The notes under the pieces are model-generated. The model made no database searches. It saw only the letters and a program-made list of their open reading frames with translations, and had not been told where the DNA came from. Both the position numbers and the translations under genes were made by a program. A stretch of DNA of 50,898 bases. Origin: Thermoproteota archaeon (GTDB taxonomy: Archaea; Korarchaeota; Korarchaeia; Korarchaeales; Korarchaeaceae). Every line of letters starts with the position of its first letter. Position 1 is the first letter of the stretch. The DNA lies in NCBI GenBank assembly GCA_027491415.1, contig JAOZFH010000032.1:1-50898 (forward strand), written 5' to 3'. Below, one piece after another: positions 2,948 through 43,881 of the stretch.

Positions 2948-3042
2948 GGGCCCGTGGCTCAGCCTGGCAGAGCGCCCGGCTGATAACCCATCTGGTGGTG
3001 GAAACCGGGAGGTCGCGGGTTCAAGTCCCGCCGGGCCCACCA
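2948..3042 (+). tRNA. tRNA-Ile(GAU) with 18-nt intron
   Basis: Acceptor GGGCCCG/CGGGCCC, discriminator A and encoded CCA. Anticodon stem CCCGG/CCGGG; anticodon GAT at 2982-2984; intron 2986-3003 at position 37/38. Acceptor, D-arm and T-arm nearly match the tRNA at 24585, which supports isoleucine identity for that one. Confidence 0.92.
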
Positions 3043-33706: not shown

Positions 33707-34114
33707 TCACTCCTCCTTAGGACTGCTCCAGACTGCCACGAAGCTCGGAACCACGAGAAGGGGCGGGTAGTCTTCCGTCTTAATGAGCACAACCTCGCCG
33801 CCCATCCGCTGGACCTTCTCCTTCAGCTGCTGCAGCGCTATTCGGAGTTCCTGACTGCTCTTATTGGCCAGCTCGTCGTACCGAACTATCACTATATTGT
33901 TGTCGCTGACCTCCCCGAGGATCAGGTCAATGTCCGTCATGCTCCTCAGGTCAACGGGCTTTATCGCCAGGGGCTTTTCTTCCATGGCCGGGTGGACTGG
34001 GGGGATGTCCTCCAGACCCTCGACATCTTCGTACTCTCCCTCCTCGTAGTACTCGTCATAGTACTCTTCTTCCTCATCTCCCCGCCTGCCGAAGATCTTC
34101 CTGAAGAAACCCAA
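33707..34114 (-). CDS. sepF: SepF-like FtsZ membrane anchor
   Basis: Archaeal SepF tethers FtsZ to the membrane. The 135-residue protein starts GFFRKIFGRRG, an amphipathic membrane-targeting helix, followed by a long acidic linker rich in Glu/Tyr and a SepF core (DLRSMTDIDLILGEVSDNNIVIVRYDELA; VQRMGGEVVLIKTEDYPPLLVVP, quoted in part). Two FtsZ genes in the window are its likely partners. TTG at 34114, 42 nt from TATTTAAA on the minus strand. It faces away from the LSm gene. Confidence 0.9.
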   Translation of the reverse strand: MGFFRKIFGRRGDEEEEYYDEYYEEGEYEDVEGLEDIPPVHPAMEEKPLAIKPVDLRSMTDIDLILGEVSDNNIVIVRYDELANKSSQELRIALQQLKEKVQRMGGEVVLIKTEDYPPLLVVPSFVAVWSSPKEE

Positions 34115-34816: not shown

Positions 34817-36142
34817 ATGACCGACACGAGGGCGGTCGGCGTCGTCGGAACGGGGGGCGTGGGAAAGACAACGATCTCTTTTCTCTTGGCGCTTGCGCTT
34901 TCCTACGGATCTCGAAGGGAGCTCTCGAGGATTGCGGCCGTCGACGCAGACGTGACGGAGGCCATGCTGACTAAGATGCTTCTCGGTCGCTGGTCGGGGC
35001 CTGACTTGGTGGATCTCCTGCTCGACAGGGCAGACCTCGACTCCGTCTTGATCGCCCCCCGTGTCCTACTGTCGATTCCGGGAGAAAGGGTGTCACCTCC
35101 GGGGTTGAGACCCCTCTCGGTCATTCCGGGGGCGCATTCGAGGGTAGAGGAGGTAAGGTCGCTCGGCGCGGAGCGTCTCAGGGAGTCGCTAGGGAGAATC
35201 CGGGCGGCCTTGGAGGAGAGGGGTATCGAGCTGGCGCTCGTTGACTTCCCTCCCGGGGATCCCTCCCTCACGGAGTTTGCCCACGCGCTCTCCGAGTGGA
35301 TAGACGCGGCCGTCGCAGTGGTCACCCCCTCGAGAAGGAGGGTTGTCGCCACGGCTTCGATGTGCCGGGCGCTGGAGGACAGGGGAGCACCGACGGTGAC
35401 GGTGATCCTAAACAGGTTTCACAAGTCAGAGCCCTTCGACGAGACCGGGATGAGGTGGGAAGACCTGGTGGACACCTACTTCGGGAGGCGCCCCATAGTC
35501 TTGCCGGACGACCCCGAGCTGGCGAGGATTATGGCCCACGACGCCATCCCACTGGACAGGCTCCCCAGGCTGCGACCAGTCAGGGTCTTAGCTGAGCGCC
35601 TAGACACCATCTTGGAGCGAGTTGAGGCGATTCGCATAGAAAAGGCCCGCCCAGCTCCTGAGACGCCTGCGCCCAGCTTTGAGAGCGTAGAGTCGGAACT
35701 CAGGGAGATCTTCTCGTCCGAGCCCCACCCGGAGCTCCAGCCGACAAGATCGAGCGGCCTGCCTCCCATTCACCCGGTGTCCGCGGAGGCGCCTCAAGCT
35801 CACCGACAGGCTGGCACCGGCGGGGCCCCCGGCAAGGCACCCCAGGAGGCCCCAACCTCAGAGGGGCGGTCGGAGAGGTCGGGCATAGCGGCGAAGGTTC
35901 AGGGGAAGTTGAAGAGGCTACTGGGTGGGTCGTTTGAGGTCAGATATCCAGACGGGCGAGTCGTGAGGGTGAAGAAGTCGGTAATCAGGTCCGCCCTGGA
36001 GATGGCCGGGCTCGACAGGGTGGCGCTTGAGTCCTACATGAGGTCAGGCTCGGTGAACTTAGCCGAATTGAGAAGTGCAGAGCTGGGAGCGTGGAGATTC
36101 GCTCTCCTCGCGTCTGGTCTGGAGCCGATGGATGGGTGGTGA
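34817..36142 (+). CDS. MinD/TadZ-like ATPase of the pilus locus
   Basis: The 441-residue protein has a ParA/MinD-type ATPase domain (residues ~1-270): Walker A VVGTGGVGKTTIS, AAVDADVTEAML, LALVDFPPGDPSL and VTVILNRFHKSEPF. The signature Lys before GGxGKT is replaced by Thr. A Pro/Ala-rich linker (~290-360) joins a C-terminal domain (VQGKLKRLLGGSFEVRYPDGRVVRVKKSVI). In bacterial Tad systems a ParA-like TadZ positions the secretion machine; the downstream secretion ATPase, platform and peptidase genes make a similar role likely, by inference. It heads the plus-strand operon. Confidence 0.8.
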   Translation: MTDTRAVGVVGTGGVGKTTISFLLALALSYGSRRELSRIAAVDADVTEAMLTKMLLGRWSGPDLVDLLLDRADLDSVLIAPRVLLSIPGERVSPPGLRPLSVIPGAHSRVEEVRSLGAERLRESLGRIRAALEERGIELALVDFPPGDPSLTEFAHALSEWIDAAVAVVTPSRRRVVATASMCRALEDRGAPTVTVILNRFHKSEPFDETGMRWEDLVDTYFGRRPIVLPDDPELARIMAHDAIPLDRLPRLRPVRVLAERLDTILERVEAIRIEKARPAPETPAPSFESVESELREIFSSEPHPELQPTRSSGLPPIHPVSAEAPQAHRQAGTGGAPGKAPQEAPTSEGRSERSGIAAKVQGKLKRLLGGSFEVRYPDGRVVRVKKSVIRSALEMAGLDRVALESYMRSGSVNLAELRSAELGAWRFALLASGLEPMDGW

Positions 36143-36151
36143 TGCTTTTCG

Positions 36152-36946
36152 ATGACCTCGAGTCCGTCTAGGACCCTGGTTGTCCTCGTGGGCGCCTACT
36201 CCTTGGTCGCCGTCGCCCTGCTCACCGGGGCCCTTGGGGGGGTGGCCGGGCCGCCGGAGTCGCGTGAGATCTTCAACTCGCCGCTGGAGGCCGCGCTGAC
36301 CGGGGCTCTCGGTGGACTCGTTGGCTATCTCCTCTCCTTCTCCAGCGCAGGCGTGTTGGGCCTGGTTTATGCCTCAAGCCTGTCCGGAATGTCCCGCGGC
36401 TCTACCTTGATCGACCTCTTGGTGAGGGGGTCTCTTTTGGCTCCAGCCGTGTTTGGATTCTCTGACTTTGCCAGCGTGTGCCTTGCCTGGCGATACGGTT
36501 ACGCCAAGTCCGCCAGGTCCGTGCTCAAGTTCACGGGATACGCCGTAGTGATGGGGGCCGCCGCGGCCCTGGCGCTGCCCCCGAGGTGCTCCACCGCCGC
36601 CTGGTGGGCCGTCCGGCTCGACTCTCTGGCGGCCGGAACGTCTGTCTTGGCGATCCCGGCGTGGGCCTACCTTCGGTCCGGAGAGAGGACAATGCGGGGG
36701 ACCGGTCTCGCCCTCGCGACATCGGCGGCCGCTCTGCTTGTGTCTTCGACGTCGGGCGCGCTCGGGGCGCTCGCCGGTGCCTTCTCGGGAGCGATCCCTT
36801 GGCTCATCCCGCGCCGCCTGTTCTTCCGGAAGGTAGTCGAGATTCCCCCGCCGCCAGTTGGACCTAGGGTACAGCGGTCGGTGGCGGATGACATCGCGGA
36901 GGTGAGGCGCCTCATCCTGGAGAGGATGGCCGAGGGGGGTCTCTGA
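36152..36946 (+). CDS. Polytopic membrane protein of the pilus locus, unknown
   Basis: The 264-residue protein has about seven hydrophobic segments and a cytosolic tail ending KKVVEIPPPPVG...DIAEVRRLILERMAEGGL. No family is recognised. It follows the MinD-like gene by 9 nt and its TGA overlaps the next ATG (TGATG). It could form part of the membrane platform, taking over functions lost from the very small T2SF proteins, but this is inference from position. Confidence 0.75.
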   Translation: MTSSPSRTLVVLVGAYSLVAVALLTGALGGVAGPPESREIFNSPLEAALTGALGGLVGYLLSFSSAGVLGLVYASSLSGMSRGSTLIDLLVRGSLLAPAVFGFSDFASVCLAWRYGYAKSARSVLKFTGYAVVMGAAAALALPPRCSTAAWWAVRLDSLAAGTSVLAIPAWAYLRSGERTMRGTGLALATSAAALLVSSTSGALGALAGAFSGAIPWLIPRRLFFRKVVEIPPPPVGPRVQRSVADDIAEVRRLILERMAEGGL

Positions 36947-37347
36947 TGTTTGCGCCGATTCTGGCGGCTCTCTCCCTGCTCCTCGCCGGAGCGCTGTCGC
37001 CCCCGGCCGCGGCCCCAGCCTGCCTAGTCGTCCTCATTGAGGCGTCGCTGGAGGCCCGCGGGTGGATTCGGGGGCGAAGAAGGAGAAAGTTACTCCTCAG
37101 AGTCTTAGAGCGGGCCAGAGAGCTTAAAGAAGCCGGACACCGCGAGAGGTCCAGAGAGCTGATCCTCTCCGCCATAAGGTACGAGCTGGCCGCTAGGCTG
37201 TCTCAGCCCCTCAACTCCGACTTGGCCGAGCTCTCACCCGCCCTGCCCAGGGCTTGGAGGGACCTGCTGTCTTCCGGGTCGGCGGACGACCTCCTCAGGG
37301 CGGCCGAGGTCCTTCTCTCCGGGGAGTCCCGGCCCCGCCTTTTATAG
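36946..37347 (+). CDS. Membrane-anchored helical protein of the pilus locus, unknown
   Basis: The 133-residue product has one or two hydrophobic segments at the N-terminus (MFAPILAALSLLLAGALS; PACLVVLIEASLEARG), then a basic RGRRRRKLLLRVLERARELKEAG stretch (quoted in part) and a helical cytosolic domain. No motif is recognised. It is coupled to the gene before it. Its last codons CTT TTA TAG form the TATA box of the next gene. Confidence 0.75.
   Translation: MFAPILAALSLLLAGALSPPAAAPACLVVLIEASLEARGWIRGRRRRKLLLRVLERARELKEAGHRERSRELILSAIRYELAARLSQPLNSDLAELSPALPRAWRDLLSSGSADDLLRAAEVLLSGESRPRLL
37340..37347 (+). promoter_or_regulatory. Internal TATA box before the candidate pilin gene
   Basis: TTTTATAG is the only AT-rich run nearby; it lies 28-35 nt before the GTG at 37375 and overlaps the stop of the preceding gene. 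An extra promoter here would raise expression of the pilin over the rest of the operon. Confidence 0.6.
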
Positions 37348-37374
37348 CCGCCGAGGCCGCCAGTCGGTGATCCC

Positions 37375-37665
37375 GTGGAGGAGGTACGCCGGCGTCTTCC
37401 CGGCTATCTGATCGAGTTTCTCGAGGATGAGAGGGGGGTCACTCAGACGGTCGAGCAGGCTCTCCTCATAGCCGCCACGATAGCCGCGTTCTTCGTCCTG
37501 GTCGTCAATCCTGTGGCGGGCGTCGTGGACCTGGTGTGGAACCTGCCAGAACTCGCCGACAAGAAGTTCCTCGACTTTGTGACCGAGCTGAGAGATCGAT
37601 TGGGCGGCATCTTCCACTGGGGAGAGGGACAGGCTAACTTGACTGCGAACTCGACTGTTCCCTGA
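37375..37665 (+). CDS. Candidate type IV pilin-like protein
   Basis: The 96-residue protein has a charged 21-residue leader (EEVRRRLPGYLIEFLEDERG), then VTQTVEQALLIAATIAAFFV, a hydrophobic helix with Glu near +5/+6. This is the layout of a class III prepilin signal: basic/charged leader, Gly at -1, polar start, acidic residue, hydrophobic N-terminal helix. The C-terminus carries two N-glycosylation sequons (NLT, NST). The secretion ATPase follows after 12 nt and a minimal prepilin peptidase lies at 40144. Identification as pilin is inference. Confidence 0.65.
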   Translation: MEEVRRRLPGYLIEFLEDERGVTQTVEQALLIAATIAAFFVLVVNPVAGVVDLVWNLPELADKKFLDFVTELRDRLGGIFHWGEGQANLTANSTVP

Positions 37666-37677
37666 AGGGGGAGGGCC

Positions 37678-39078
37678 TTGCTGCTCGGGGAGGGCAGGGT
37701 TCGCGAGTTCGCGGCCGCCGTATCTCGGCTCGACTATGCGTGGGCGCGACTCCTAGCCGCCAGGCCCGCGAGGACCTACGACGAGCTGAGGGCCAGGTCG
37801 GCCCGCGGGGAGAGGGAGCCCAGGGGGATCATCGCAGCCGTTCCTCCGCCGCCTAACTGTCCGCCGGTTCCAGATGGGAGAATTCTGGAGGACTTAGGAC
37901 CCGCCCTGCTCGTGCAGAACGGTCGGCGAGAAGGCGCGCTGGTTCCGAAGAGCTGGGTCCGCGGCGGCGACTCCGCGGCCTCCGCAGCAGCTGCGGCAGA
38001 ACTCCTGCGGGGCAGGTACCCGCCCGACGTGCTGGAAGCGGGGCTTTGGAGGACGGTGTCCTACAGGTCGTCTCTGGCGGCCGGAATAGGGTTGGATCCG
38101 GACCTCGCCCTTGAGGCGGCCGTTAGATCGACGAAGCTGTGGCCGATCGCGATCCTCTTGATGGGCTCGGACGTGACTGAGGTCTACGGGAGCCTCGGAT
38201 CGAGGGTGTACATCGATCACATCGAGGCGGGAAGGTTGGTCGTCGAGAACCTGATCCTCGACGAGACCGACTTTGAGAGAATAAGGAGCTTCGTCGAACT
38301 CCATCCACACGGCTCCATCGGTCCCCACAACCCTCTCGCAAAGGTCGACCTGGAGCTGCCCGGAGGCAGGGTGAGGCTCACGGTGGACGTGCCCCCAGCC
38401 TCCACCCCTGGGTTTGACGCAAGGAACCTGTCCGCGATGTCTCGCCTCCCACTCCCAAGGCTCATATCCCTTGGGACCATCTCGGAGACTCAGGCCGCGC
38501 ACGTGCTTGAGGCGCTGTCCGGGGGCACGCCCGTCCTGGTCGCGGGTCCGACTGGGTCGGGCAAGACGACGCTATGCAACGCCCTGCTGGTGGCCCTAGG
38601 GAGGGGGGTCAGGGTGCTCACGGTGGAGGAGGTCAGGGAGGTGGAGGACCTCGGTGAGTATGGAATGCTCCACCACGCCTACGCAATTCCCGGGGCCCGA
38701 ACCTCGGCGGTCATGGCCCTGCTCCACAGGAACCCAGACGTCGTCTTCTTGGGGGAGATATTGAGTTCAGAGCACGCCAGGGCGTTTGAGTTCGCCGTCG
38801 ACTCTGGCTTCAGAGTGCTGGCCACCACGCACGCCTCGGACCGGCGGGGGCTCATGCGGAAGTGGTCCTCTTGGGGGCTCTCCCAGGCCCTCGAGGGCGC
38901 GCTGATCGTGTTCATGAGAGACAAGAGGGTGGAGCGCGTCGGCACGGTGATGGGAGGCGCCTGGGAGGAGGTCGACCCCGAGCCGAGCGGCGCCTGGTTT
39001 GACCTCGTCCGATCGCTCAGGGGCATGCGGACGAACTTCGAGGTCGCGGCCGCCGTTGGCAGGGTGATTCCGGCTTGA
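37678..39078 (+). CDS. Type II/IV secretion ATPase (TadA/CpaF/ArlI-like)
   Basis: This 466-residue ATPase drives pilus assembly. An N-terminal domain (~1-240) includes ELHPHGSIGPHNPLAKVDLELPGGRVRLTVDVPP (quoted in part: VRLTVDVPPAST), followed by Walker A LVAGPTGSGKTTLCNALL at about residue 288-304, the Asp box RVLTVEEVREVEDL, Walker B DVVFLGEILSSEHA and the His box VLATTHASD. All catalytic motifs are present. Start TTG at 37678. Its stop overlaps the first T2SF gene by 4 nt. Confidence 0.93.
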   Translation: MLLGEGRVREFAAAVSRLDYAWARLLAARPARTYDELRARSARGEREPRGIIAAVPPPPNCPPVPDGRILEDLGPALLVQNGRREGALVPKSWVRGGDSAASAAAAAELLRGRYPPDVLEAGLWRTVSYRSSLAAGIGLDPDLALEAAVRSTKLWPIAILLMGSDVTEVYGSLGSRVYIDHIEAGRLVVENLILDETDFERIRSFVELHPHGSIGPHNPLAKVDLELPGGRVRLTVDVPPASTPGFDARNLSAMSRLPLPRLISLGTISETQAAHVLEALSGGTPVLVAGPTGSGKTTLCNALLVALGRGVRVLTVEEVREVEDLGEYGMLHHAYAIPGARTSAVMALLHRNPDVVFLGEILSSEHARAFEFAVDSGFRVLATTHASDRRGLMRKWSSWGLSQALEGALIVFMRDKRVERVGTVMGGAWEEVDPEPSGAWFDLVRSLRGMRTNFEVAAAVGRVIPA

Positions 39079-39596
39079 GCGTCGCCAGCCTGTTTGGAGG
39101 AAGAAGTTCCCGCGACAGGCTGCGGGCCGTCTACGCGCTCTGCGCCGCCCTGCCAGCCGGCGCGCCCGGCGCCCTGAGGGTTGCCGCCGAGGTGGCGCCT
39201 GAGGAGGTCGCGCGGGCCTTCAGGAGCGCCCTGGCTGAGGCGGCCGTCGAGGGCACGCCCATCGAAGCGGCGCTCGAGAGGTCGCTCTCAACTGTAGACT
39301 GGGCCCCTCTGAGGGAGACGGTCACCGCGCTTGTCAGGGGAGGAAACCCGGGGGTCTCTCTCGACATTCTCAGGCGCTACGTTGAGTCTGAGATCGAGGC
39401 CGAGTCTCGGGAGATATCGCTCAGGTTGGGGATCCGGACGACGGCCGCCTTCTCCGCCATCACCGTGGTGGCGGCCTCGGTGGTCACGGGCTCCGCGCCG
39501 CCCGGCCTCATCGCCCCGGCGGCCGCCGCGATCTCCCTGTTCCTCCTGGCGGCGTCGGTGAGGAGGTGGATCCGACTGTGGAGGGCCCGAGCCTGA
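39075..39596 (+). CDS. Mini T2SF platform protein 1 (TadB/TadC-like)
   Basis: The 173-residue product carries one T2SF domain: a helical bundle with EAAVEGTPIEAALERSLS and SLDILRRYVESEIEAESREISLRLGIRTTAAF, ending in two C-terminal transmembrane segments (TAAFSAITVVAASVV; LIAPAAAAISLFLLAASV) and a basic end. Archaeal platform proteins (ArlJ, PilC-like) normally hold two T2SF domains in one ~500-residue chain. It overlaps the ATPase stop and its TGA overlaps the next ATG. Confidence 0.8.
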   Translation: MSVASLFGGRSSRDRLRAVYALCAALPAGAPGALRVAAEVAPEEVARAFRSALAEAAVEGTPIEAALERSLSTVDWAPLRETVTALVRGGNPGVSLDILRRYVESEIEAESREISLRLGIRTTAAFSAITVVAASVVTGSAPPGLIAPAAAAISLFLLAASVRRWIRLWRARA

Positions 39597-40147
39597 TGGA
39601 CTGGCTGGCCTCCCTCCTTGAGGCTGGCATGCCTCCCCTGGCCGCCATTGAGTCTCTTGCGCGCTCTCAAAGTGAGCTGCAAGGGGCGGCGGCCAGGGCG
39701 AAGGTCGAGGGAGACGTTCTGACCTCCCTCTCGCTTGCCGCCGAGGCCTTCGGCGACGACGCCCCCCTGGTGAGGGCCTTGGTCCCCGGCCTGAGTCCGG
39801 ACGGGGCGGCCATGATCCTGCGCCACGCCGCCTCGGCGTCCCGCGCCATCGGGCAGCTCATGGAGGAGAGGAAGTCGGTGCTGAGGTGGCACAGGCGGGT
39901 GTGCAGGACCCTCGCGGCTTCCGTAGCCGCCTCGACGGCAGTCTTGGGCAAGGTGACCGATCTGCTGGCTCAGATGTCCCTGGGCCATGGCGTCCAGGGA
40001 ACCGGTGCCCTAGGTCCCATGGTGGCCATTGGGCTGGGGTTCTCAGCGCTCCTCCTGTCCGAGACCGGGGACAGCCCCGCCTGGATGGCCCTGCCTGCCG
40101 CCTCGGCGGCGCTGTCAATAGCTCTGCTGGAGGCGATGGGGGTTTGA
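39596..40147 (+). CDS. Mini T2SF platform protein 2 (TadB/TadC-like)
   Basis: The 183-residue product starts DWLASLLEAGMPPLAAIESLAR, the typical opening of a T2SF domain, followed by RHAASASRAIGQLMEERKSVLRWHRRV and two to three C-terminal transmembrane segments (VAASTAVLGKVTDLLA; GALGPMVAIGLGFSALLLSE; PAASAALSIALLEA). With the gene before it, this looks like a platform protein split into two half-size subunits. ATG at 39596 is coupled to the upstream stop (TGATG). Its TGA overlaps the TTG of the peptidase. Confidence 0.8.
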   Translation: MDWLASLLEAGMPPLAAIESLARSQSELQGAAARAKVEGDVLTSLSLAAEAFGDDAPLVRALVPGLSPDGAAMILRHAASASRAIGQLMEERKSVLRWHRRVCRTLAASVAASTAVLGKVTDLLAQMSLGHGVQGTGALGPMVAIGLGFSALLLSETGDSPAWMALPAASAALSIALLEAMGV

Positions 40148-40530
40148 CCACGCTCAGCCTCGCCACATCGGTGCTTCTCATCTCGGAGGTGTGGATTGCG
40201 GCCTGCGTAGACTCCCGCTCCGGGAGGGTTCCGAACAGCCTCAACGCCGCCTTTCTGACCTTGAACCTGGCTGTGGCTGGCTCTCTGGGGTGGTGGAGGC
40301 CGGCCCTGGTCTGGTCTGCCCTGTCCGTCCCGGCCGCGCTGGTCCTGCACAGGCTAGGCCTGGGAGGCGGAGACCTGAAGCTCGTCCTGTCTACGTGCCT
40401 CCTGGGCGGGCCGATCCCCTGGGTGGCCCTCGCCGCCGCGTGCGTCGCCGGGTACCTCAGCGGCGGCAGGTTCTCCGCGCTCGACCTGGCGGCCTTCGCG
40501 ACGGTCTTCGCGATTCCGACACTCCTCTAG
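40144..40530 (+). CDS. Minimal prepilin peptidase (A24 aspartate protease)
   Basis: The 128-residue protein has about four transmembrane segments and both catalytic aspartates of A24 peptidases: ACVDSRSGRVPNSLN and GLGGGDLKLVLS (GGGD motif). It is far shorter than the ~200-260 residues usual for FlaK/EppA and lacks any extra domain. It is the last gene of the plus-strand operon and would process the candidate pilin. TTG start overlaps the stop before it; its 3' end runs into the C-terminal frame of the convergent TFB-like gene. It ends in TAG. Confidence 0.85.
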   Translation: MTTLSLATSVLLISEVWIAACVDSRSGRVPNSLNAAFLTLNLAVAGSLGWWRPALVWSALSVPAALVLHRLGLGGGDLKLVLSTCLLGGPIPWVALAAACVAGYLSGGRFSALDLAAFATVFAIPTLL

Positions 40531-40752
40531 CAGGCTGGCAGTCTCCTTCCACCGGCTCTTCCCGAGCCCCAGCCTCCGGAGCAGATCCTTGAAGGGAATC
40601 CGAGCCCCTCCCCTCAACCTCGTGGGGAACCCGACCTGTTCCATTGCCAGAAGGACCGCGACCGCCGCGAGGTGCCGGGGGTTCCTCCCCGCCAGGGCCC
40701 CACCCACCCCCTCGACCCCGCGCAGCATGGCGATTGCCCTGATCCTGATCAC
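40354..40752 (-). pseudogene. C-terminal cyclin repeat of a TFB-like factor, separated by stops
   Basis: In the same frame as the gene at 40762, after TGA-ATG-TAG, reading continues EVIRIRAIAMLRGVEGVGGALAGRNPRHLAAVAVLLAMEQ (quoted in pieces: GRNPRHLAAVAVLLAM; FKDLLRRLGLGKSRWKETASLLEE). The GR.P..LAA..LA pattern is that of the second cyclin repeat of archaeal TFB. A perfect GGAGGTGATC sits at its start but no ATG follows within normal spacing (next ATG 40728). After LLEE the frame runs antisense through the peptidase gene for ~55 codons, so the true end is probably near 40520. Either a separate translated half or part of a decayed gene. Confidence 0.65.
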
Positions 40753-40761
40753 CTCCTACAT

Positions 40762-41268
40762 TCACCCCATGTCCAGACCTGACCTGACCAGCCCCCTGAT
40801 TATCGCCCCGACGTAGTACTCCGGAGAGACCCTGTAAGAGACGCCTACAAGCGATTTTACTGCCTCCATGCCCTTCAAGACGTCGCTTGGCCTGACCTTC
40901 CTGGCCCGGGTGAGGGAGAGCGCTTCCAGCACCTCCGAGATCGTAAGGGGATACCCCAGCCTCCTACCCGCGGCCAGGAGACACGCGGCGGCTAGGGAGG
41001 CGGACGCCCGCCCTCCCGTCTTGGAGAGGTAGATCCACAAGAGCCCCTCGGCGGCCGAGCGCACCGAATCGGGCACCTCAAGGGCCTCGGCCAGGTCTTG
41101 GATAACCCTCAGCCGGGAACTCTTCGCTGGGACTCCCAGCCACCAGCCCTCAAGCCGCGAGATCCTGCCCCACATCCTCCCACACGTCGGACACACTAGG
41201 CAGCCGTCCTCAACGATGAGGCGCGATCCGTCAACCGGGCACCTGGACGCGTCCTCCTGGACCACCAT
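40762..41268 (-). CDS. TFB-like transcription factor, N-terminal half (zinc ribbon plus one cyclin repeat)
   Basis: The 168-residue product has a reduced zinc ribbon, SRCPVDGSRLIVEDGCLVCPTCG, in which the second cysteine of the first pair is Asp, followed by the first cyclin repeat (RSAAEGLLWIYLSKTGG; ASLAAACLLAAGRRLGYPLTISEVLEAL) and SPEYYVGAIIRGLVRSGLDMG, where TGA stops it. Full TFB has two cyclin repeats in ~300 residues; the second lies in the same frame just beyond (40752). TFB recruits RNA polymerase at the TATA-TBP complex. It is the last gene of the minus-strand surface-protein operon. Confidence 0.75.
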   Translation of the reverse strand: MVVQEDASRCPVDGSRLIVEDGCLVCPTCGRMWGRISRLEGWWLGVPAKSSRLRVIQDLAEALEVPDSVRSAAEGLLWIYLSKTGGRASASLAAACLLAAGRRLGYPLTISEVLEALSLTRARKVRPSDVLKGMEAVKSLVGVSYRVSPEYYVGAIIRGLVRSGLDMG

Positions 41269-41335
41269 GCGCCGCAGCTGGGGCCGATGCAGGTTTCCCC
41301 CGCCCACCTGACGAAAGTATCCCGCTCGCGGGCGT

Positions 41336-41581
41336 TCAGGGGGCTCCCAATATTCTCGGAGCCGAGGCCAGCGCGATATCCGCAACCAGTAGGTAGAGCA
41401 TCACCCGCCTGATCTCCCGCGCCAGTTCCAAGTGGTCCTCAAGGAGCCAGGAGAGGACGAGCAGCAGGGCTATCGGCGGCGCGGCCTCCCGGGCCAGGGC
41501 AGACGCCCTCAGCAGGCCATCTCTCACAGCCTCCCAGAGTCCCCAGAGCATTTCTCCGAGCTCTCTCTCGAACGGGTTCAC
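41336..41581 (-). CDS. Small membrane protein of the pilus locus
   Basis: The 81-residue protein has an amphipathic N-terminus (NPFERELGEMLWGLWEAVRDG) and two hydrophobic segments (PPIALLLVLSWLLEDH; VMLYLLVADIALASA). No family is recognised. Its GTG overlaps the stop of the gene upstream (GTGA). It is fifth in the mRNA after the surface proteins and just before the TFB-like gene. Confidence 0.7.
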   Translation of the reverse strand: MNPFERELGEMLWGLWEAVRDGLLRASALAREAAPPIALLLVLSWLLEDHLELAREIRRVMLYLLVADIALASAPRILGAP

Positions 41582-42501
41582 GTGGCCTCCCTCCGCAGAA
41601 GCCCGCGAGTGACGACCGTGATCGCGCCCTCCGAGTAGCACCCCCACCCGGTCCTCTCTTCCTTCCACCAGTAGCGTACCTCGGGGTCCTCCACCCAGAC
41701 GCGTATTAGGAGGGTGGCACGGTGCGTCGCCTCGACCCACTCGCCCCTCCTATCCAGATCGAGTTCTGTTCCGTTGAGAACGACGTCGAACGAGATGCTC
41801 AGTCCCCGCTTGGAATACTTGAGCCTCAGCTCTCTCTCTAGCGCCCTCACCTCACCGATTACCTGCCGCATCGCGCCGTCGGAGGCCTCGAGGAGTTCGG
41901 CGGAGGAGTTGACGACTCCTACAAAGAATACCGCGCGGCCGGCTATCTCGCCGATGCCCGCCGCGGCCTCCCGGTGTGCCTCAATCACCGAGTAGTACCT
42001 CAGGGGGTGGACCACCGTGAAGGTGTAGTTCCTGACCGCCGACGTCTCGGCCAGCCCCCTCCTAACCACCGTCGAGACGTTGAGCGCGCCTCGGACCCTT
42101 ATCATCCCTGCGTCGCCTCCGCCGAGGAAGAGGGAATTGAGATCCTCGTCCACCCCGCCTGGGCCGGGGTTCCTCCTGAGTTCCACCTCAGCCGAGGCCT
42201 TGAGCTCCGAGGCAGTCTCCACGAGCGCCGCCCGGGAGATCATCTCCTCCCAGTCCTCCAGATCTATCTGCGGAGGTTCGATGTCCTCGAGGCTCTTCCC
42301 GTTGGTCTCAACCATCCACCTGTCGATCGCGCAGCGGACGTAGATCAGGAGCCGAGGAAGGGCGGCCTCGGCCTCCATCCACGCCACCGCCTGCGAGAGC
42401 CCGGCGTCGATCGCGGGGGGGTCTAGCTCACTCGCCCTGTGCCCCCCCAGCGCCGAGAGGGCGATCACCAGCACCGCGGCGAGCCCGAGGAGGTCCCTCA
42501 C
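41578..42501 (-). CDS. Large single-anchor surface protein of the pilus locus
   Basis: The 307-residue protein starts RDLLGLAAVLVIALSALGG, an N-terminal anchor or signal, followed by an extracytoplasmic domain with several N-glycosylation sequons (NVS, NYT, NSS, NGT) and a beta-rich end (THRATLLIRVWVEDPEVRYWW). No family is recognised; it may be a pilus-associated or adhesin-like subunit. GTG at 42501 overlaps the upstream stop (GTGA). The upstream in-frame reading, rich in Gly and Arg, is a shadow of the neighbouring gene. Confidence 0.75.
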   Translation of the reverse strand: MRDLLGLAAVLVIALSALGGHRASELDPPAIDAGLSQAVAWMEAEAALPRLLIYVRCAIDRWMVETNGKSLEDIEPPQIDLEDWEEMISRAALVETASELKASAEVELRRNPGPGGVDEDLNSLFLGGGDAGMIRVRGALNVSTVVRRGLAETSAVRNYTFTVVHPLRYYSVIEAHREAAAGIGEIAGRAVFFVGVVNSSAELLEASDGAMRQVIGEVRALERELRLKYSKRGLSISFDVVLNGTELDLDRRGEWVEATHRATLLIRVWVEDPEVRYWWKEERTGWGCYSEGAITVVTRGLLRREAT

Positions 42502-42773
42502 CCTCTCCCCACCTCGACGGTGTGGTTCAGCCCCCCTGGGAGCGGGATCACCACCCTCGCCGACAGCGGGCAGGAGAGGTTCAGCCTGCCGTCCACCTCT
42601 GTCACGCTCTCCCAGACAAGCCTCGCCCCCTCCTCGCTCAGCGCGTCGACGAGCCCTCCGGCTTGCGAATCCCTGCAGGCGACCACCCACCCGGTGCTGC
42701 GGTATCCCAGGAGGGAGTAGCCGGCCAGCGCGACCACCATAAGCGCGCCCACCGCCAGCCACAGAACCCTCAC
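42498..42773 (-). CDS. Small anchored surface protein of the pilus locus
   Basis: The 91-residue product begins RVLWLAVGALMVVALAGYSLLG, a signal or membrane anchor, then a compact extracytoplasmic part with two cysteines (VVACRD, NLSCPL) that could pair, and sequons NLS and NHT. No family recognised. GTG at 42773 overlaps the stop of the 42-residue gene upstream, and its own stop overlaps the next GTG. Confidence 0.72.
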   Translation of the reverse strand: MRVLWLAVGALMVVALAGYSLLGYRSTGWVVACRDSQAGGLVDALSEEGARLVWESVTEVDGRLNLSCPLSARVVIPLPGGLNHTVEVGRG

Positions 42774-42898
42774 GGTATCACCTCCAGCGGTAGTGGGCTC
42801 GGCGGCTGCACAGCGGCCAGCGCAGCCGCGACGAGCGCGGCGATCACCAAGGCGAGCCAGAGTAGGTCCCCGATCGCGTCAGCCGCCTCCTCTGACAA
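42770..42898 (-). CDS. 42-residue single-span membrane protein of the pilus locus
   Basis: Between two overlapping genes lies a 42-codon frame starting TTG (42898): SEEAADAIGDLLWLALVIAALVAAA, one transmembrane segment, and a Pro-rich end (QPPSPLPLEVIP). It overlaps the upstream gene by 20 nt and the downstream GTG by three bases, as the other genes of this operon do. The acidic head and single helix resemble a processed pilin-like peptide, but this is only a resemblance. Confidence 0.6.
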   Translation of the reverse strand: MSEEAADAIGDLLWLALVIAALVAAALAAVQPPSPLPLEVIP

Positions 42899-43148
42899 CC
42901 CGCCCACCGCCCTCCCTCAGGCCCCCCGCTCCTGACGGAACTTGGACCTCGCCCCCCCACGGGTACCTAACCACCGTGGTGACGCGGAGGGACTCGGCCC
43001 TCTCTCCCAGCCTCGCGATGTCCTCCCTGAGCCTGGCGCTTGAGGCCCGTTCTCCCAGGCCGCGTAGGAGGGCGCCCATGGCCAGGGCGCTCAGCAGGAG
43101 GGAGGCGTTCAGGGCGATGCCGAGCGACTCCCTGAGCACCCTCCTCAC
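42879..43148 (-). CDS. Small anchored protein with coiled-coil, pilus locus
   Basis: The 89-residue product starts RRVLRESLGIALNASLLLSALAMGALLRGLG, a membrane anchor (quoted in part: NASLLLSALAMGALL), followed by a short heptad-like helix (SARLREDIARLGERAESLRV) and a small Gly-rich end. GTG at 43148 overlaps the TAG of the gene upstream by one base. No family recognised. Confidence 0.68.
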   Translation of the reverse strand: MRRVLRESLGIALNASLLLSALAMGALLRGLGERASSARLREDIARLGERAESLRVTTVVRYPWGGEVQVPSGAGGLREGGGRVVRGGG

Positions 43149-43570
43149 TACCCCCTCACCTCCAGCAGTACGGCCCCCTCGTCCCAGGCCGCCCCGACCC
43201 AGACCAACCCCCTGACCACGCAGACCTCGTTCTCAGGGTGCCAGGGGTAAGTCTGTCCGCTCAGGAGCCTCACCTCCACCGGAAACTCGACCGTGAACTC
43301 GGAGAGGCTCTCGTTGTCCCAGACGATGACCTGACCACCCCTGGCCTCGACCACGAGTTCCACCGGAATGAACACCCGGGTCCTGCAGGCCCCCCCTCCA
43401 ATGACGGCCGACACGCAGTTGCTCACGGCCCCGCCGAGGGTCCACTCGCTCGACGCCGTCAGCCGCCGGTCTATCCTCCCCGCGGCCTCTCGCATGGGGC
43501 CCGAGGCTAGGGCCAGCATGGCAGCCGCTGAGACGAGCCCGATCATGGCGTAGGCGAGCGTCTCGTTCAT
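43148..43570 (-). CDS. Pilin-like single-anchor surface protein, pilus locus
   Basis: The 140-residue product starts NETLAYAMIGLVSAAAMLALAS, a hydrophobic helix with an acidic residue at position 3 and no leader, then a beta-rich domain with three cysteines (VSNCVSAV, GACRTRVFIP, EVCVVRG) and sequons. The layout recalls minor pilins or ArlF/ArlG-type pseudopilins. Its ATG overlaps the stop upstream (ATGA). Function unknown. Confidence 0.7.
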   Translation of the reverse strand: MNETLAYAMIGLVSAAAMLALASGPMREAAGRIDRRLTASSEWTLGGAVSNCVSAVIGGGACRTRVFIPVELVVEARGGQVIVWDNESLSEFTVEFPVEVRLLSGQTYPWHPENEVCVVRGLVWVGAAWDEGAVLLEVRG

Positions 43571-43800
43571 TTACTCTCCACCCCCAGTAGCCTGGCCAGC
43601 TCACGCGCCTCCCTCTCGCTCGCCGTCAGCAGTCCAACCATAAGGCCCGCCAGCGCCTCGGCCGCCTCGCTGGCCGCAGGATTGACGATCCTGATCTCGG
43701 CAATGACCTCCCGGAGGTGCCTCCTGGCCCTCTCCCTGCTGGCGTCGAGGCTCGGCCTGCGCCGAAGCGGGAGGGAGATCAGCCTACCGAGGTTCCGCAT
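43567..43800 (-). CDS. Small helical cytosolic protein opening the minus-strand pilus operon
   Basis: The 77-residue product is highly charged and helical (SRERARRHLREVIAEIRI; ASEAAEALAGLMVGLLTASEREARELARLLG, quoted in part), with no membrane segment. The ATG at 43800 lies ~21-28 nt after AATAAAAG on the minus strand (43821-43828), so the operon mRNA is probably leaderless. No family recognised. Confidence 0.7.
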   Translation of the reverse strand: MRNLGRLISLPLRRRPSLDASRERARRHLREVIAEIRIVNPAASEAAEALAGLMVGLLTASEREARELARLLGVESK

Positions 43801-43820: not shown

Positions 43821-43828
43821 AATAAAAG
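43821..43828 (-). promoter_or_regulatory. TATA box of the minus-strand pilus operon
   Basis: CTTTTATT on the minus strand, 21-28 nt before the ATG at 43800. The divergent gene at 43882 has its own TTATAT at 43854-43859. Confidence 0.6.
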
Positions 43829-43881
43829 GCGGGGCCGGGCGGGTCGGGGGGGGTTATATCCTGCGCGGAGGCGCCGGCCTG

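Follow-up and report, generated by a model that had tools for sequence, protein, structure and literature searches.

Two sets of genes face each other on a korarchaeal contig: do they build one machine, and is that machine a pilus? They occupy positions 34817 to 43800 of the stretch analysed here (the window, 50,898 nucleotides), a complete contig of a 1.78-Mb Korarchaeaceae genome (G000; G001 is its sister genome, and other G- and L-numbers denote comparison genomes and loci). The region most probably encodes a single machine, Tad-like in its build, that assembles pili and belongs to the archaeal type IV filament superfamily, a reading to which we give a probability of about 80%. The locus is a complete, phylum-wide archaeal type IV pilus system whose parts are known in kind and whose family is a little-described branch. 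The parts, their linkage, their shared promoter and their conservation can be read directly from the sequence. The cell biology of korarchaea is almost unstudied, and nearly every korarchaeal genome carries this pilus system.

Gene calling places eight genes on the plus strand (34817 to 40530); on the minus strand, from 43800 down to 40762, it places a TFB-like gene and seven small genes. The plus-strand genes are:

34817..36142, plus strand: MinD/FleN-family (TadZ-like) ATPase, 441 amino acids (aa); Pfam CbiA/MinD, E 1.6e-6
36152..36946, plus strand: membrane protein with multiple transmembrane (TM) helices, 264 aa, partner of the MinD-like ATPase; no Pfam family, a homologue in G006 and positional counterparts in G026 and G027
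36946..37347, plus strand: membrane protein, 133 aa; no Pfam family, ratio of nonsynonymous to synonymous substitution rates (dN/dS) 0.08 against G001
37375..37665, plus strand: Flp-like pilin, 96 aa, leader ending in DERG and followed by VTQTVEQALLIAATIAAFF; Pfam Flp_Fap 0.018 (weak) and pilin alignment
37678..39078, plus strand: secretion ATPase (T2SSE/VirB11 family), 466 aa; Pfam T2SSE 1.2e-15
39075..39596, plus strand: first half of the platform protein, TadB/TadC-like, one T2SSF domain; T2SSF 0.0014 (weak)
39566..40147, plus strand: second half of the platform protein, TadB/TadC-like, one T2SSF domain; T2SSF 0.0027 (weak)
40144..40530, plus strand: dedicated A24 prepilin peptidase, 128 aa, motifs DSRSGRVPN and GGGD; Pfam Peptidase_A24 1.9e-6

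This operon thus supplies the genes by which a type IV pilus is recognised: a T2SSE ATPase, a T2SSF platform, an A24 peptidase and a pilin with a class III leader and an N-terminal hydrophobic helix. The original prediction, made from the letters alone, had described a Tad/type IV pilus-like system here; it was borne out, since every part it named is present by Pfam family, with matches to T2SSE, T2SSF (weakly), A24 and CbiA/MinD. The pilin scores below the Flp_Fap cut-off, and its size and motif fit an Flp pilin without a globular domain; it has a dN/dS of 0.08 against G001, and a profile search found one such pilin per genome in 23 of 23 same-phylum genomes. Against PDB profiles the secretion ATPase is closest to archaeal GspE2, then FlaI, then CpaF. 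Each platform half has profile matches in 25 of 27 loci; the platform is one fused gene in several relatives, and the window halves align by profile with such four-TM homologues. The Walker A motif of the MinD-like ATPase reads GTGGVGKT and lacks the signature lysine; its PDB matches are weak ones to FleN and MinD, with no TadZ structure among them.

The minus-strand operon carries small proteins of 77, 140, 89, 45, 91, 307 and 81 aa. The earlier count of six small, mostly membrane-anchored proteins was one short, having overlooked the 45-aa m45. All seven have dN/dS values of 0.16–0.44 against G001 and are therefore real genes under purifying selection:

43567..43800, minus strand: m77, small soluble protein, first gene of the operon; no TM helix seen, dN/dS 0.16
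43148..43570, minus strand: m140, pilin-shaped; 26 of 29 same-phylum genomes, structure model, hhalign
42879..43148, minus strand: m89, N-terminal helix protein; hhalign 82% to its Nitrososphaeria counterpart
42770..42907, minus strand: m45, one-helix protein; counterparts of 35–85 aa in the same place in relatives, dN/dS 0.19
42498..42773, minus strand: m91, N-terminal helix protein; same cassette position in relatives, dN/dS 0.44
41578..42501, minus strand: m307, alpha/beta domain protein with an N-terminal helix; present in 26 of 29 genomes of the phylum, model at 90 in the predicted local distance difference test (pLDDT)
41336..41581, minus strand: m81, small membrane protein; dN/dS 0.18, with multi-TM proteins of similar size at the operon end in relatives

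Within this operon, m140 to m307 form a five-gene cassette, and the two operons are one system. This conclusion rests on core gene order, co-occurrence and a shared promoter. First, four deep relatives (G024, G026, G027, G028) carry both halves on one strand: ATPase, platform and (A24) come first, and m140, second, short, fourth and m307 follow in that order. The cassette is inverted in the window's genus and in G006; in other genera it lies apart, at a second locus where its genes are similarly ordered. Second, almost all genomes of the phylum have the system's ATPase, and most have m307 (26 of 29 same-phylum genomes and 0 of 32 other archaea, the three genomes without it being 63–78% complete) and m140 (26 of 29, with one marginal match outside the phylum). 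The original prediction had named either operon alone in an unrelated context as evidence against a link. The halves do lie at separate loci in more than half of the relatives, the cassette being apart from the ATPase, at another locus or on another contig, in G004, G005, G008, G010, G012–G019, G023 and G025. Yet almost every genome has both, and we saw no unrelated partner system for either half. A MinD-like ATPase, followed by a multi-pass membrane protein, lies near m307 in G026 and adjoins it in G027, and this closeness places the TadZ-like gene and its neighbour at 36152–36946 in the system as well.

Third, the pilin gene and the minus operon are preceded by the same promoter element:

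37328..37345, plus strand: promoter element CCCGGCCCCGCCTTTTAT, 18 bp, before the pilin gene (genome scan)
43822..43839, minus strand: promoter element CCCGGCCCCGCCTTTTAT, 18 bp, before the minus operon (genome scan)

Between the end of its 15-bp core, GGCCCCGCCTTTTAT, and the start of the following gene lie about 30 bp at the pilin and about 21 bp at the first gene of the minus operon. The core has only these two sites on both strands of the 1.78-Mb genome, which holds no other perfect or one-mismatch copy and one two-mismatch copy; the reversed core, used as a control, has no copy in the whole-genome scan. All other gene pairs in the window share upstream words of at most 12 bp, against 18 bp here. 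G001 retains the 15-bp element at both places; the 18-bp identity is confined to the window's genus, and no promoter shared by pilin and cassette was found in other genera. Together with the single-operon order in distant relatives, this element bears out the proposed link, which had been drawn from convergence and a common surface theme.

The TATA part of the element looks ordinary for this genome and is preceded by a GC-rich part. In archaeal promoters the region before TATA is where TFB binds, and a TFB-like gene closes the minus operon:

40762..41307, minus strand: TFB-like factor, zinc-ribbon-like part and first cyclin repeat; TFIIB repeat 2.3e-7
40354..40752, minus strand: open reading frame (ORF) of the TFB-like second cyclin repeat (homologous part about 40537–40755); it overlaps the A24 gene at that gene's 3' end and is continuous with the first part in G001

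The dedicated TFB-like factor announced by the original prediction is thus present (TFIIB 2.3e-7), and in this genome it is split: two in-frame stops (TGA, TAG) separate the cyclin repeats, where G001 has a single open frame. A TFB paralogue at the end of the minus operon suggests a private regulon of this factor, a prediction weakened by the two stops and by a canonical TFB elsewhere in the genome. The chances are evenly split on whether the gene is instead a decaying bystander with no role in the system. Its stops point that way, as does its distribution, since among the korarchaeal loci read a TFB gene adjoins only those of G000, G001 and G004. Pulling in the other direction, both halves show a dN/dS of 0.3 against G001, although the G001 branch alone could account for that value, and the GC-rich part of the shared promoter lies where TFB is predicted to bind. 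TFB genes also stand beside related loci in Nitrososphaeria and Asgard, and TFIIB homologues are reported near archaeal pili generally in a 2016 census (PMC4858521).

What do the cassette proteins look like? The structure model of m140 (pLDDT 89) has a long N-terminal helical region and a sheet, the general shape of a pilin or pseudopilin. Its shape, its position and precedent make m140 a candidate minor pilin, and no cleavage motif is recognisable in it or in m307. The original prediction had proposed looking for pilin folds among the small proteins, and m140 shows that shape in outline; m307 is modelled with an alpha/beta domain, and a PDB fold search returned no credible match for either, the kinesin-like matches to m307 having TM-scores below 0.2. 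We dropped the broader idea that all the small minus-strand proteins are pilins because m77 has no membrane helix.

Several points weigh against reading the locus as a pilus machine. No filament has yet been observed. The Flp_Fap match and both T2SSF matches fall under the Pfam cut-offs. The cassette proteins have no Pfam family, no cleavage motif and, for the two that were fold-searched (m140, m307), no PDB fold match. Finally, the window locus has no obvious adhesin, unlike the loci of several relatives.

From the gene content we propose the following working of the machine. The 96-aa pilin would lie in the membrane with its leader inside, and the dedicated A24 peptidase would cut it after ..DERG. 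The secretion ATPase would drive the two-part platform (39075–40147), which would lift pilins into a thin filament without globular heads; short, head-less pilins are a hallmark of Tad pili (PMC11067988). The proteins m140, m89, m45, m91 and m307 may form a complex at the base or the tip, acting as minor pilins or TadE/F/G do, and the MinD-like ATPase and its membrane partner would place the machine. The pilin and the minus operon would be switched on together through their one promoter type. The likely use would be adhesion.

The machine is unlikely to make, in place of an extended adhesive pilus, a short pseudopilus that serves in protein secretion, in DNA uptake or in DNA exchange between cells. 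Ups pili do serve DNA exchange in Sulfolobales (PMC7554672), and the missing adhesin would fit such a use. Against this, a separate gene under its own promoter encodes the pilin, relatives' loci encode large surface proteins with terminal TM helices, and no DNA-uptake or exchange gene was recognised at the window locus, where no search was aimed at Ced/Ted genes. That the two operons are unrelated and adjacent by chance is hardly credible: the cassette's separate position in many relatives would allow it, and the conserved single-operon order of deep relatives refutes it; near-universal co-occurrence and a promoter unique to the two operons also speak against it.

In Korarchaeum relatives, large surface proteins (about 470 and 330–850 aa) that carry TM helices at one end or at both stand beside the cassette or the ATPase (L063:8612-10030, L037:13249-15696 and counterparts); the window locus has no such proteins.

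How the pilin is processed differs across the phylum. Type IV pilus assembly is held to be defined in part by the step in which an A24 peptidase cleaves off the leader. From the pilin alignment and start-site reading across korarchaeal genomes we distinguished three leader classes. Where the ATPase locus includes a clear A24 gene (G000, G001, G006, G004, G025, G028), leaders are long, have acidic residues before the cut and end in EDERG, DDESG, RDERG, KDERG or ANENG. Genomes with no clear locus A24 gene (G005, G008, G010, G012–G017, G026, G027) have basic, mostly short leaders such as MRRRRG, MRRKG and SNKG. Acidic leaders split 6:0 with a locus A24 gene and 0:15 in the rest, a contrast whose statistical significance is overstated because the genomes are related.

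In the third class (G003, G007, G009, G011) the pilin frame begins at the mature residue, without a class III leader. In these genomes and G024 the starts read MQQTIET.., MINTMET.. and MLNTVET.., against ..RG|VTQTVEQ.. elsewhere. Nearby stops and the lack of an upstream start codon leave no room for a leader in G007, G003 and G011, and TATA-like boxes lie about 25–30 bases before the pilin ATG in this group. G009 has an in-frame ATG upstream, an unlikely start because of the TATA position. In G024, from another family, the pilin starts with GTG at the mature residue (genome 66% complete, locus A24 divergent). These genes are:

L052:8026-8289, L051:11951-12220, L050:11666-11902, L038:8313-8516 and L206 (G024): pilin genes starting at the mature residue, K. 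cryptofilum group and G024

We lean towards the view that Candidatus Korarchaeum cryptofilum (the best-known species, and likely the source of G007) and its near relatives, and independently G024, make their major pilin leaderless and would assemble the filament without prepilin processing. Across the phylum, pilin leader type and peptidase type appear to have changed together. The leaderless group has no second pilus ATPase that we found, and the pilus-system ATPase is the only ordinary pilus ATPase found in G007; the leaderless group retains one A24 gene elsewhere in the genome. The literature searched, which leaves out most subscription journals, yielded no description of a major type IV pilin that naturally lacks a leader. 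The leader series is the part of this system that would surprise a specialist. It begins with a long acidic leader that has a dedicated peptidase, continues with a short basic leader and ends with none, a natural series in which the purpose of the leader and of its removal could be tested. Leaderless pilins had also been considered in ORFs of 61–63 aa beside the ATPase in G026 and G027; these were dropped when a profile search found better pilins elsewhere, with leaders.

Other A24 genes were seen in these genomes. The A24 gene of G007 (L079:7267-7908) has no pilus neighbour, and GEAD replaces its GxGD motif; GEAD also occurs in the A24 genes at a second pilus locus of G001 and G004. A second, divergent A24-like family (L056:7091-7573 in G028, L055:6311-6739 in G024) has the motif YED/VED-LK and GxGD/SLGD, and is the sole A24 type in the locus of G024, whose pilin is leaderless. 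The window genome carries a second A24 gene outside the pilus locus. G000 (contig C7, L061:241-6773), G001 (L078) and G004 (L077) also have another type IV pilus locus, of conventional kind, whose platform is a fused protein with seven TM helices; an A24 gene lies in the same region in G001 and G004.

Within the window locus, synonymous divergence (dS) from G001 is 0.04–0.12 in the genes at 34817–39596, which start with the MinD-like ATPase and finish with the first platform gene, and 0.19–0.52 in those at 39566–43800, where the second platform gene and all that follows up to the end of the minus operon lie, a step that is a possible recombination boundary. Elsewhere in the window lie an FtsZ-like gene at 1515–2708, recognised by reading IVIVGVGGAGSN, a tRNA-like gene at 2948–3042 with no anticodon assigned, and a SepF-like gene at 33707–34114 (Pfam 2.4e-5) that directly precedes the pilus locus.

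How does the system relate to known pili? In a quick ATPase tree of 77 sequences (midpoint root, some long branches), the korarchaeal ATPases come out as a single clade (support 100), nested in a group (support 100) with sequences from Nitrososphaeria, Asgard, Geothermarchaeota and Marsarchaeota, apart from other archaeal pilus ATPases and from bacterial Tad. Like bacterial Tad (type IVc) systems, the window has two one-domain platform genes (a feature described in PMC6668835), a MinD/FleN-family ATPase, a short, apparently head-less pilin and a small A24 peptidase. These resemblances could suggest that a bacterial Tad system was gained by horizontal transfer, a scenario we give next to no chance: the grouping with Nitrososphaeria and Asgard speaks against it, and a single ATPase clade with bacterial Tad was rejected (approximately unbiased test, p 0.0001). 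The Tad label thus fits the build and not the ATPase lineage. The window also differs from bacterial Tad in having no TadE/F/G Pfam match among the cassette proteins and no secretin that we found.

The Epd pilus of Methanococcus, which depends on EppA, shares paired platform genes, a short pilin and a dedicated A24 peptidase beside a general one. As the 2016 census (PMC4858521) describes them, Epd-like clade 1 systems have two TadC-like genes and a FleN/MinD ATPase, as here, and EppA has 9 TM helices, against a 128-aa single A24 domain in the window. Pfam found none of the DUF2341 adhesins of clade 1 among the window locus proteins, and the ATPase tree held no named clade 1 (Epd) reference.

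That census (Makarova, Koonin and Albers 2016, PMC4858521) already reports MinD/FleN ATPases, paired tadC genes and TFIIB homologues at archaeal pilus loci, so the arrangement that the original prediction found unfamiliar had been published. Its clades 1 and 4 share with the window a secretion ATPase, a TadC-like platform (two genes in clade 1), FleN/MinD, A24, several minor pilins and nearby TFIIB homologues. The main text of the census does not give the five-gene cassette, the pilin leader series or a korarchaeal locus by name.

Also among the closest known systems are those of Nitrososphaeria and Asgard (L086–L104), whose ATPases fall in the same clade as that of the window. Nitrososphaeria loci share the split platform, an Flp-like pilin, small N-terminal-helix genes in the same order and a nearby TFB gene. 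Moreover, m140 and m89 are homologous to their positional counterparts there (hhalign 96% and 82%, against at most 14% for mismatched pairs); hhalign detected no such homology for m91 and m307. In most Asgard loci only part of the cassette, or none of it, was seen, and the platform is fused in Lokiarchaeota. Among 2943 ORFs, the m140 profile picks the cassette gene in Lokiarchaeota, in G038 and at three other loci, and hhalign gives 63% for m140 against a Loki protein. Denise et al. (2019) derived bacterial Tad from such archaeal systems (PMC6668835). The korarchaeal locus adds a branch of TACK/Asgard Tad-like pili that is relevant to this proposed archaeal origin.

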